Positions 1 through 23,026 of a stretch of 42,339 nt of DNA are shown in pieces. The DNA lies in the IMG/VR virus record IMGVR_UViG_3300046792_000103, positions 1 through 42,339 of that record. One strand, written 5' to 3'. This stretch comes from a virus. How positions within the stretch are numbered: the first letter of the stretch is position 1; each line of letters opens with the position of its first letter. The notes beneath the pieces are model-generated. The model made no database searches, was not told where the DNA came from, and worked only from the letters and a program-made list of their open reading frames with translations. Position numbers and translations under genes: made by a program.

Positions 1-127
1 AGCTGGCGAAGTCGCTCAGGGTCACAGTCACTCGCCGACAGGGCCGCGTCACCGGGGTCAGGCTGATCGGCACCGCGAAGACCCCTGAAGGTAAGAAGCG
101 GGACCTTGCATCGCTGAACCGTGGCCG
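1..127. repeat. Terminal direct repeat, left copy (circularisation overlap)
   Basis: These 127 bases are identical to bases 42213-42339. The repeat lies inside a gene that reads through the join without a frame break, so the molecule is circular or circularly permuted and the repeat is counted twice. An overlap of exactly 127 nt equals a common maximum assembler k-mer, so it is probably an assembly overlap, not a biological terminal repeat. Confidence 0.93.
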
Positions 128-287
128 TCTGCGTCACCCGCTCTACGGGAACCGCAAGCACTGGTATGACCAGCAGGTCTCGCCGAACTGGTGGGACGAT
201 CCGTTGATCAAGGGTGCCACCAAGGTGCGCAAGGAGATCGTCAAGTCACTCGACGACGTGGCGAAGAAACTCGCCCGGAAGCTCTGA
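1..287 (+). CDS. HK97 gp10-like tail completion protein, C-terminal part
   Basis: This is the 3' part of the gene that starts with GTG at 42032. The first complete codon here is at base 3 and the stop is TGA 285-287. Joined across the circle (42032-42212 plus 1-287) the protein has 155 residues. It is basic and contains a PLYGNRKHWYDQQVSPNWWDDP-type stretch near residues 110-130 typical of gp10-like tail completion proteins, followed by a charged helix ending in KKLARKL. Position between the tail tube gene and the tail chaperones agrees with a tail assembly role. The family call rests on remembered motif similarity, not on a search. Confidence 0.75.
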   Translation, partial: LAKSLRVTVTRRQGRVTGVRLIGTAKTPEGKKRDLASLNRGRLRHPLYGNRKHWYDQQVSPNWWDDPLIKGATKVRKEIVKSLDDVAKKLARKL

Positions 288-297
288 GTCCAAGATC

Positions 298-334
298 CAG
301 CGACCCCGCCAACTCCTGACCGGCGGGGTCGCTG
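298..334 (+). terminator. Strong intergenic hairpin before the tail chaperone gene
   Basis: Bases 298-310 and 322-334 form a perfect 13-bp GC-rich stem with an 11-nt loop. No T-tract follows. It sits in the gap between the gp10-like gene and the tail chaperone, where it could attenuate transcription or protect the downstream mRNA end and so lower chaperone output relative to the tube protein. Confidence 0.6.
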
Positions 335-19833: not shown

Positions 19834-20210
19834 GCGTCACGATCCATCTCGCGATCAGCCGCGACGTGCTGCTGACTTCCAACACGAAGGCCCACTGGGC
19901 TACCAAGGCCCGCCACACCAAGGTGATCCGTGACATGGCCTGGATCATGGCCAAGCACCAGCGGGTCCAGTTGATGCCCGCGGCAACCCTCGAGGTGGTC
20001 ACCAAGTGGCCGGACCACAGGGTGCGCGACGCGGAGAACATCGCGCCTACGAGCAAGGCGGCGATCGATGGCTGTGTGGACGCCGGCCTACTCACTGACG
20101 ACTCGTCGCGCTACCTGACGCACGTCGGGTACGCCATCGACGACGAGACCCACAAGACACCTGGTGTCGCGTGCTTCATGACGCTCACCTTCACGCCGGT
20201 GACGCCATGA
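19830..20210 (+). CDS. RusA-like Holliday junction resolvase
   Basis: 126 residues from ATG 19830, behind GGGAGCAGCC. The central RDAENIAPTSKAAIDGCVDAGLLTDDSSRYL is the RusA signature: Asp residues in RDAEN and in LLTDDS coordinate the metal, and the Lys in TSKAAID is the conserved basic residue. RusA-type dimers cut Holliday junctions and help resolve branched replicating DNA, which fits the neighbouring ERF and replication genes. The length is typical. Confidence 0.85.
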   Translation: MSVTIHLAISRDVLLTSNTKAHWATKARHTKVIRDMAWIMAKHQRVQLMPAATLEVVTKWPDHRVRDAENIAPTSKAAIDGCVDAGLLTDDSSRYLTHVGYAIDDETHKTPGVACFMTLTFTPVTP

Positions 20211-20974
20211 CCGACCTCAACGTGCTGTCCCTGTTCGCGGGCATAGGTGGCTTGGAACTGGGCCTGGAGCGCGCCGGCATGACCGCGGTCGGCCAGGTCG
20301 AGCTCGACCCCTACTGCAACGAAGTCCTCGCAACCCATTGGCCGGAGGTCCCACGCCATGACGACGTACGAACCGCTCCCGAGTGGTGGCTCAGTGAGCC
20401 ACGACCACGGGTCGATGTCGTCTGCGGAGGCTTCCCCTGCCAGCCGTTCAGTGTCGCAGGCAAGCAACTCGGAACCGCCGACGAGCGCTGGGGATGGCCG
20501 TGGATGGCAGACTTCATACGCGCAGTGGGACCCCGATACGTCGTCGTGGAGAACGTCTCAGCTCTCCTTCGAGATGCCGACGCCTTCGGATGGATGCTCG
20601 GTGACCTTCACGGACTCGGGTTCGATGCGGAGTGGTCTCTTGTCACCGCGTGCTCCGCTGGTGCCCCACACATGCGTCGCCGACTGTTCGTTGTGGCCTA
20701 CCCCACTGGAGAGTTTCGGCCGGCACGGCTGGCCGAAGAGCTCGGCCGGGTCGGACAAACCGCGGTACGGCGAGACGGCGATGGCGAACATGCTTGGCGC
20801 CGTCCAGAGGTTTGGCTGGAAGCCGCCGGTAGCCCTGATCGAGTGGCTGATGGGGTTTCCACTCGGATGGTTGCGGCCGGCGGAAACGCGGTCGTCCCCC
20901 AGGTCGCCGAGCTCGTCGGCCGACTGATCGTCGCCCACCACAACCAACTCACTCTCACCCATGGGGGGCACTGA
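20207..20974 (+). CDS. DNA (cytosine-5) methyltransferase
   Basis: 255 residues. The motif set is complete: I, LSLFAGIGGLELGLERAG (residues 8-24); IV, GGFPCQPFS with nucleophile C78; VI, VVVENV with E115; VIII, HMRRRLFVVAYP (155-166); X, GGNAVVPQ (225-232). It transfers a methyl group from SAM to C5 of cytosine, probably to protect phage DNA from host restriction. The target-recognition part between VIII and X is short (about 55 residues). No restriction enzyme lies beside it. A second long ORF lies inside it in another frame. Confidence 0.93.
   Translation: MTDLNVLSLFAGIGGLELGLERAGMTAVGQVELDPYCNEVLATHWPEVPRHDDVRTAPEWWLSEPRPRVDVVCGGFPCQPFSVAGKQLGTADERWGWPWMADFIRAVGPRYVVVENVSALLRDADAFGWMLGDLHGLGFDAEWSLVTACSAGAPHMRRRLFVVAYPTGEFRPARLAEELGRVGQTAVRRDGDGEHAWRRPEVWLEAAGSPDRVADGVSTRMVAAGGNAVVPQVAELVGRLIVAHHNQLTLTHGGH
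20358..20927 (+). CDS. Nested overprinted ORF inside the methyltransferase gene
   Basis: A 189-residue ORF lying wholly inside the methyltransferase gene, one frame off. It has its own GGAGG nine bases before ATG 20358. The sequence contains EASPASRSVSQASNSE, an SSWRTSQLSF...SGSMRSG segment, APLVPHT...SLWPTP and ALIEWLMGFPLGW. I recall these motifs, in this order, from a widespread phage and bacterial family found near cytosine methyltransferases. EWLMGFPLGW is read from the same bases as RVADGVSTRM of the enzyme. Real dual coding is likely, function unknown. The alternative is a spurious reading forced by a conserved enzyme. Confidence 0.55.
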   Translation: MTTYEPLPSGGSVSHDHGSMSSAEASPASRSVSQASNSEPPTSAGDGRGWQTSYAQWDPDTSSWRTSQLSFEMPTPSDGCSVTFTDSGSMRSGLLSPRAPLVPHTCVADCSLWPTPLESFGRHGWPKSSAGSDKPRYGETAMANMLGAVQRFGWKPPVALIEWLMGFPLGWLRPAETRSSPRSPSSSAD

Positions 20975-20975
20975 C

Positions 20976-21257
20976 ATGCGCGATCCCAACCTGGACCGGA
21001 CCTGGATGCAACAGGCACTCTGCGCCCAGATCGACATGGACATGCACTTCCCGCGGTCCAACGCCCTCAAGCCCCGCGAACCGGTCGCCGTGTGCCGTGC
21101 GTGCTCGGTGCTCGCGAACTGCCGCGAGTACGTGATGACGCTGGAGGTCGGCTTCGCCCAGTCCAGACGCGTCGGGGTGTGGGCGGGGATGTACCCCAAC
21201 GAGCGGATCAAGTACGAGCCGCAGTGGCTCGCCGAACAGGTCGAGGGGGCGGCGTGA
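20976..21257 (+). CDS. whiB: WhiB-family iron-sulfur transcription regulator
   Basis: 93 residues from ATG 20976 with a GGGGGG stretch upstream. Four cysteines, C16, C40, C43 and C49 (spacing C-x23-C-x2-C-x5-C), bind a 4Fe-4S cluster. GVWAG (67-71) is the WhiB turn, usually GVWGG. WhiB proteins occur only in Actinomycetota and their phages and act by binding the primary sigma factor. It could redirect host transcription or help exclude other phages, as reported for the TM4 WhiB-like protein. The C-terminal basic tail is short (NERIKYEPQW). Confidence 0.92.
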   Translation: MRDPNLDRTWMQQALCAQIDMDMHFPRSNALKPREPVAVCRACSVLANCREYVMTLEVGFAQSRRVGVWAGMYPNERIKYEPQWLAEQVEGAA

Positions 21258-21703: not shown

Positions 21704-21894
21704 CCGAGGTAGGGAAGGTTCTCGGCGTACTGGTCGAGCATTCGATCGTGCGCGGGATCCGCAGCATGCAGACCCATTGCAAGTGCGGCTGGATCTCTGT
21801 CGCCCAGGCGGATGGCTGGCATGAGCACGCACACCACCAGGCGGTGCAGATCGTCGCCGCTCGACGGAGCAAGTCGAAGAAGGCCGCATCGTGA
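21700..21894 (+). CDS. Small His/Cys-rich protein (64 aa)
   Basis: ATGA-coupled at 21700. MQTHCKCGWISV and DGWHEHAHHQAVQIV give a Cys2/His-rich centre that probably binds zinc. The tail is basic (RRSKSKK). Similar short proteins with CxCGW...HxxHH are common in actinophages. Function unknown. Confidence 0.65.
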   Translation: MTEVGKVLGVLVEHSIVRGIRSMQTHCKCGWISVAQADGWHEHAHHQAVQIVAARRSKSKKAAS

Positions 21895-22517
21895 GCGCGA
21901 TCTACGCCGCACTCGGTGCGGTGATGAAGCAGGTTGGGGCCGTCAAGAAGGGCGACCGCAACAAGAGCCAAGGCTACGTGTTCCGTGGCGTCGATGCGGT
22001 CGTGAACGCCGTCTACCCAGCGATGGTGGAGCACGGCGTGATCGTGCAGCCGAACGTGCGGGACTTCCAGTACGGCACGGTCGAGGTGGGCAAGGACCGC
22101 ACGACGATGGGTCACGCCCGCGTGATCGTGGAGTACACCTTCACGTCCACCGAGGATGGCTCGGCGGTTATGACGTCGGCCGCCGGCGAGGCGTTCGATT
22201 CCGGCGACAAGGCCACCCCGAAGGCGATGAGCGTGGCCCTGCGTACCGCGCTCTTGCAGTCGCTGATGCTGCCGACGGACGAGCCGGAACCAGATGCCAG
22301 CACCTACGAGAGGTCTGCTCCGGTGGCCCCACCGGACCCGCTGATCGTGGCGCGGAACGCCGTGGCGGATGCGTGGAGGGCGAACCGTGGCGAGTTCCAC
22401 CCTGCCGCTGTCGAGAAGGACTTCACCGAGTGGTCCAGCGGTGAGGTCTTCATGGACGCGACAGCAGAGCGCCTGTTGACCTACGCCGAGCATCTCACCA
22501 AGGAGCAGAGCGCATGA
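21891..22517 (+). CDS. erf: ERF-family single-strand annealing protein
   Basis: 208 residues from GTG 21891, overlapping the previous stop. The N-terminal 140 residues match the ERF core (IYAALGAVMKQVGAVKKGDRN, YVFRGVDAVVNAVYPAMVEHGV, DKATPKAMSVALRTALLQSLMLPT). ERF proteins form rings that anneal complementary single strands and drive phage recombination and circularisation. With the RusA-like resolvase upstream it makes a recombination module. The C-terminal 60 residues are less conserved. Confidence 0.92.
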   Translation: MSAIYAALGAVMKQVGAVKKGDRNKSQGYVFRGVDAVVNAVYPAMVEHGVIVQPNVRDFQYGTVEVGKDRTTMGHARVIVEYTFTSTEDGSAVMTSAAGEAFDSGDKATPKAMSVALRTALLQSLMLPTDEPEPDASTYERSAPVAPPDPLIVARNAVADAWRANRGEFHPAAVEKDFTEWSSGEVFMDATAERLLTYAEHLTKEQSA

Positions 22518-23026
22518 GCACCGAGTCGGAACGCCGACAGCGCAAGACTGAACTGCAGCGGCTGCGGCGGGCGGAGCAGAGGACTGGGTTCGCGGGCGTA
22601 CCACTGGACTACTCAGCGGTCGCGGCCCGAATCGGAGAGTTCAGGTCGAAGATCGCTCATGCCGATGACGGCTGCTGGAACTGGCTCGGCAAGGTCGATC
22701 GACCAGACGGTGGTTATGGATACATCTACCACCAAGGTCGGTGGTATCGCGCTCACCGCGTGTTCTACGTGGCCGCCAAGGGCGTTCCCGACCCGGGGCT
22801 AGATCTTGACCATCTGTGTCGCAATCGACTGTGCGTGAACCCCGACCACTTGGAAGCGGTGACCAGATCTGAGAACAACCGCCGGGGTCACGACCACAAC
22901 TCCGCGAAGACGCATTGCCCGCAGGATCACCCGTACGACGAGGCGAACACCAAGTGGTACCGGGGTCGGCGGTACTGCCGCGCCTGCGGCAATGGGCGCC
23001 ACCTGAAGCAGGAGGCGGGAGCATGA
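22514..23026 (+). CDS. HNH endonuclease with zinc module (170 aa)
   Basis: ATG 22514 overlaps the ERF stop. CWNWLGKVDRPDGGYG, RAHRVFYVAAKG and LDLDHLCRNRLCVNPDHLE are the HNH_3-type core, with catalytic His in LDHLC and the Asn/His pair in VNPDHLE. The C-terminus carries the same C..H..N..C..C zinc module as the gene at 21254 (CPQDHPYDEANT...YCRACG). Such free-standing genes are often homing endonucleases. Confidence 0.88.
   Translation: MSTESERRQRKTELQRLRRAEQRTGFAGVPLDYSAVAARIGEFRSKIAHADDGCWNWLGKVDRPDGGYGYIYHQGRWYRAHRVFYVAAKGVPDPGLDLDHLCRNRLCVNPDHLEAVTRSENNRRGHDHNSAKTHCPQDHPYDEANTKWYRGRRYCRACGNGRHLKQEAGA

Follow-up and report, generated by a model that had tools for sequence, protein, structure and literature searches.

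The window that we analysed, a virus record that is 42,339 bases long and GC-rich (66%), contains a methyltransferase gene with a second long reading frame inside it, and the question raised by this locus is whether the inner frame encodes a protein and what such a protein would do. The outer frame (20207..20974, + strand), termed alpha, encodes the large subunit of a C5-cytosine DNA methyltransferase with motifs I-VIII and X, without motif IX. The nested frame (20358..20927, + strand), termed beta, carries motif IX and lies wholly within the alpha ORF in the +1 frame, comprising 189 codons from the ATG at 20358 to the TGA at 20927; its assignment is based on its match to phrog_1008, homologues in the same +1 frame, and codon-shuffle tests. 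A 189-residue ORF at this position had been described in a sequence-only reading of the DNA, and we recovered both the ORF and all of the words named in it. That reading had also given beta its own GGAGG. A possible Shine-Dalgarno site, GGAGGT (20344..20349, + strand), is indeed present about 9 nt 5' of the beta ATG, but it doubles as alpha codons for PEV within the conserved HWPEVP codons and the Shine-Dalgarno/ATG pair is not conserved in all relatives; the site was discarded as evidence. The alpha ATG itself overlaps the stop codon of the upstream ORF (ATGA, window positions 20207-20210), which suggests translational coupling with that ORF.

Alpha matched phrog_363 and PF00145 (E=4.9e-37), the latter only over positions 2-162 of the 324-position profile, and a PDB search with alpha matched M.HhaI (12-189), with the match ending just past the motif VIII block. 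On a class I fold, alpha presents in order motif I, motif IV (FPCQ, with the catalytic Cys; 20432..20443, read as SPAS in the +1 frame), motif VI (ENV; 20549..20557, with E115-N116 invariant), the motif VIII region (APHMRRR; 20663..20683), and motif X (GNAVVPQ; 20882..20902), all on the + strand. The AF2 model of alpha (pLDDT 86, pTM 0.84) superposed on M.HhaI (7..327, Z 26.8, 225 aligned, 3.4 Å) and M.HaeIII (Z 22.9, 207 aligned, 2.0 Å) and covered the large domain of each, including the motif X helix (231-252), which aligned to the end of M.HhaI. Residues 188-216, located where the small domain would be, were disordered in the model. Neither motif IX nor the small (TRD) domain was found in the alpha chain, for which the profile match stopped at 162 of 324, and because of this absence we classify alpha as a subunit and not as a complete enzyme.

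The motif that alpha lacks was located in beta. At 20841..20870 (+ strand) the nested frame reads EWLMGFPLGW, overprinted on RVADGVSTRM of alpha, and the C-terminal word of beta is LNPxWVEWLMGFPxGW. A beta profile matched single-chain relatives at the motif that precedes motif X (E=1.5e-9), and its best match to canonical enzymes, which was weak, fell on motif IX LTPRECWRLQGFP (E=0.005). Upstream of this motif, in the position of the target recognition domain, LWPTP (20691..20705, + strand; T115 invariant, P116 in over 90%) marks the start of a variable region between motifs VIII and IX (20706..20840, + strand), a putative target recognition region over which the alpha frame is poorly conserved. 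The AF2 model of beta alone was poor (pLDDT 63) and confident only for the motif IX part, the beta profile retrieved nothing from the PDB sequences at E values up to 10, and no Pfam family was common to the 108 beta sequences scanned. Beta matched phrog_1008 (E=1.5e-27), as did all 34 beta sequences of alignment A1. The widespread family that the sequence-only reading had placed near methyltransferases is real, but its members here lie inside or overlap the methyltransferase gene, and no copy of beta away from a methyltransferase was encountered among the relatives found.

Related loci were fetched by using beta, by using alpha alone, and from annotated phages, and at 265 of these 266 loci a beta match overlapped alpha in the +1 frame. 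Motif IX was present only in the beta frame for 72 of the 83 loci found by alpha, only in the alpha frame for four, and in both for one, with a frequency of 0.5% in shuffled sequences; the remaining six included four with near-variants or a missed motif IX copy in beta and two that were truncated or rearranged. The single-chain enzyme of locus L191 has motif IX in the alpha frame directly before motif X (LNPDWVEWLMGYP..RLMALGNSVVP; LNPDWVEWLMGYPISWTDGGSRMQRLMALGNSVVP), and Hamulus gp68, Aggie gp53, and B22 gp50 each combine PTP repeats, EWMMGxPxGWV, and motif X in frame in a single chain; in these fused forms, the PTP repeats are a continuation of the region of beta in the target-recognition position. 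Motif X occurs in the beta frame in L040, L041, L196, and L250, L250 having IX and X jointly in the beta frame and L191 having them in the alpha frame; the differing motif frames of L196, L250, and L191 look as though indels had shifted segments from one frame to the other. The second frame of Vanisoa and Lilbooboo contains both IX and X, and its overlap with alpha is limited to the end of the alpha frame. When the two frames are summed, the set of motifs I-VIII, IX, and X is nearly always complete.

Several additional features were noted among these relatives. The +1 frame is still open in the fused enzymes Hamulus gp68 (L268:1223-1573) and Aggie gp53 (L269:875-1390), where it holds the beta N-terminal words SETWPTSGMTRNGxLLPLP..SSxPTPRA. 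A second overprinted +1 family (L038:1652-2077, L201:2115-2646, L207:2181-2640, and L192:2202-2652) differs from beta and ends in SLSxILExxxxxKYFLSxKAxxGILRRAxxRGKxLPxxLExAL; it lies over single-chain enzymes that have a motif IX of their own, of the RLQGFPDDW type, and over the truncated L192, and one member, MM1 ORF14, is annotated. In B22 gp50 (L270:91-2190), the catalytic SPC of motif IV is immediately followed by approximately 300 intein-resembling residues that interrupt the methyltransferase (SPC-FVAGTS...VVHN-CQD).

Two-chain enzymes of this class offer a comparison. The small chain of the window is encoded inside the gene for the large chain, and in M.EcoHK31I the 176-aa small subunit is likewise encoded within the large subunit gene in another frame. 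In M.EcoHK31I (YGGCCR) the large subunit contains motifs I-VIII and X and the small subunit contains motif IX only (PMC3404938), a distribution shared by the window pair, the likeness being one of motif layout. Because this layout is the two-polypeptide design of M.EcoHK31I, and EWLMGFPxGW is the motif IX that alpha lacks, the earlier statement that the second product has no known function was mistaken. The window pair differs from M.EcoHK31I in being phage-borne, with no restriction enzyme among the scanned neighbours, and whereas the predicted TRD of M.EcoHK31I belongs to its large subunit, the region at the TRD position in the relatives of the window is better conserved in beta. M.AquI (CYCGRG) is split after motif VIII, with IX and X in the small chain (PMC3404938); Vanisoa and Lilbooboo resemble it in this respect, and IX and X lie together in the second frame in L040, L041, and L250, whereas the window pair keeps motif X in the alpha chain and has a beta frame that is nested over its full length. 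The name of phrog_1008, "DNA methyltransferase", conveys neither a subunit role nor nesting. Paenibacillus phage Lily gp63 is likewise nested within gp62 in the +1 frame and contains LIMGFPIKW; its record assigns no function or mechanism beyond the methyltransferase label.

Motif IX is an essential piece that is absent from alpha and present in beta, so that the two most likely form one enzyme. We conclude that the locus very probably encodes a two-polypeptide phage C5-cytosine DNA methyltransferase, with both chains derived from one stretch of DNA. Alpha, without the small domain and motif IX, would fold as the large domain, providing SAM binding, the catalytic Cys of motif IV, the ENV of motif VI, motif VIII, and a motif X that returns to the core. 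We infer that beta is translated separately, from a start codon inside the alpha gene, in the +1 frame; that it supplies motif IX and a variable region corresponding to the target recognition domain of single-chain enzymes; that it would assemble with alpha into one active enzyme marking a short DNA sequence; and that the methylation most likely protects phage DNA from host restriction. The neighbours of alpha include genes for a WhiB-like protein (20961-21257), an ERF recombinase (21891-22517), and an HNH protein (22514-23026). A Pfam scan of six neighbouring ORFs gave no match to a type II restriction enzyme, and for this reason the window gene looks like an orphan phage methyltransferase.

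The beta sequence might instead be made as an alpha-beta fusion, by a programmed frameshift after motif VIII, alongside unshifted alpha, although we regard this as unlikely. A start codon 5' of the SPAS word was present in 230 of 244 relatives and absent from 14, so the beta start codon moves among them, and its absence from those 14 would suit a frameshift. The same is true of Vanisoa and Lilbooboo, in which a shift into the second frame with IX and X would give a single-chain enzyme, and single-chain fusions of that kind exist. However, the 14 sequences mostly have a later in-frame ATG, and in the window a shift after motif VIII would lose motif X. A late shift also requires no conservation of beta over motifs IV-VIII. 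Since the conserved words of alpha force part of any +1 reading, we assessed such conservation by shuffling synonymous codons within alpha at 80 phage loci picked by alpha alone. With stops ignored, the N-terminal part of beta scored 99 bits versus 60 bits for the shuffled sequences, using a model trained on nested sequences, and exceeded all shuffles at 74 of the 80 loci, which indicates conservation beyond the demands of alpha.

It is improbable that beta is a real protein with some other role, such as a regulator, an anti-restriction protein, or a toxin-like protein, with an incidental likeness to motif IX. No structural or Pfam match was obtained for most of beta, as such a role would allow, and a shortened conserved N-terminal part of beta persists over the single-chain enzymes of MM1, L191, L201, and L207; because it persists where no extra motif IX is needed, beta may do more than supply that motif. 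Against an incidental likeness, alpha is without motif IX at precisely the place where beta contains it, the motif changes frame as a single unit, sometimes together with motif X and sometimes not, and in the fused relatives the beta word occupies the motif IX position.

Very improbable is the possibility that the beta frame is an artefact, in which a GC-rich gene and conserved alpha words together yield long, similar +1 frames. When alpha was recoded with the codon usage of the window (20,000 runs), the beta span stayed open in 8.2% of the recodings, and the longest open frame averaged 145 codons in synonymous shuffles; the length of beta alone is therefore weak evidence, and ORF length was discarded at an openness probability of 0.08. 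The SPAS word was also discarded, as an echo of alpha motif IV. Fourfold-site divergence in alpha remained at background level (0.54) across the first 20 codons from the FPCQ motif and suppression set in approximately 20 codons after it; this lack of suppression means that ASPASRS for the most part mirrors FPCQPFS, and the earlier pairing of FPCQPFSVAG with ASPASRSVSQA as a dual signal proved to be largely forced by alpha. Shuffled alpha sequences, as noted, reach 60 bits with the N-terminal beta model. The constrained core of beta begins near GxGxxxSxAxYDPxTSSWRTSQ. The pairing of RVADGVSTRM with EWLMGFPLGW, in contrast, held up: EWLMGFP appeared in one of the 20,000 recodings (0.005%), and alpha uses the rare codons CGA, GCT, GTT, and ACT exactly over the beta motif. 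The GC3 of alpha was 0.86 before the overlap, 0.65 inside, and 0.81 after, with a background of 0.82. Using the same 80 loci and beta model, the full beta HMM scored 145 bits versus 31 bits in shuffles and was above all 30 shuffles at every locus (80/80), and the C-terminal half, with stops ignored, scored 52.6 versus 7.5 bits (75/80 loci). M.EcoHK31I or a nested restriction-modification system was sought among plasmids; the four bacterial enzymes fetched were all single-chain, and when used as negative controls they showed no beta signal for the N- or C-terminal part.

The synonymous-site test proposed in the sequence-only reading pointed in the same direction. Fourfold-site divergence in alpha was 59.8%, 40.6%, and 61.2% before, inside, and after the overlap (0.60, 0.41, and 0.61) for pairs that are not independent; for disjoint pairs the values were 0.565 versus 0.370 in the overlap, with lower divergence in 55 of 65 (P=3e-10). 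The suppression was confined to the overlap, as for an overprinted pair, and it is seen even though the alpha protein itself shows lower conservation there than in the part before the overlap. Judged from the sequences, both frames are conserved beyond what the alpha protein sequence forces, and the suggestion of dual coding is supported by the synonymous-site suppression, the codon-shuffle tests, and conservation at 265 of the 266 loci. Phages whose hosts have a lower GC content, such as Lacticaseibacillus and Paenibacillus, showed the same pattern. The suppression, the dip in codon bias, and the frequency of motif IX in the null sequences (0.005-0.5%) refute an artefact unless RNA structure or another DNA signal explains the suppression. 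That alpha is a decaying single-chain methyltransferase with its C-terminal part out of frame, both frames being remnants, is likewise very improbable, for although an indel in Llama-like phages breaks both frames at one place, the two frames remain whole and show conservation among divergent phages and prophages from many phyla, and motif X of alpha and motif IX of beta are both kept. The Llama indel (L032:3215-3245, also in L012) is common to Ochi17, Seabastian, and relatives, where two methylase genes are annotated.

Existing annotations rarely capture both chains. For XFactor gp67 (L031:3001-3729) the nested beta alone is annotated, as a hypothetical protein, and the surrounding alpha frame is unannotated; XFactor and SG4 both have this alpha-beta pair. 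Lily gp63 is annotated as "g62 internal gene", DNA methyltransferase, and a survey lists gp62 and gp63 as cytosine methyltransferases (PMC6070908). Elsewhere only alpha or only beta is annotated, and unannotated betas occur in Lacticaseibacillus phage R9.1, a Salmonella phage, and a Synechococcus phage. The open literature searched yielded no paper that describes nested methyltransferase genes in phages. The best reading of these data is that beta, as the motif IX subunit of a split phage C5 methyltransferase, is widespread and largely unannotated; the split arrangement, for which a bacterial precedent is known, turns out to be common in phages.

Few long same-strand gene pairs have two products that are both conserved across phyla, and in this overprinted pair a function can be assigned to the second one. 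Two proteins are probably encoded by each of hundreds of phage genes for which annotation gives a single, or the wrong, methyltransferase ORF, and alpha cloned alone would give an inactive enzyme if the split-enzyme reading is true. More tentatively, the locus may belong to a phage-wide family in which the catalytic and sequence-recognition halves occupy two frames of the same DNA, motifs IX and X have been exchanged between frames across lineages to give nested, partly overlapping, and fused forms, and beta has an extra role. The pair is a compact natural system in which two essential motifs (EWLMGFP and DRVAxGVP) are kept on the same bases, and in which one may ask how a methyltransferase passes between split and single-chain forms.
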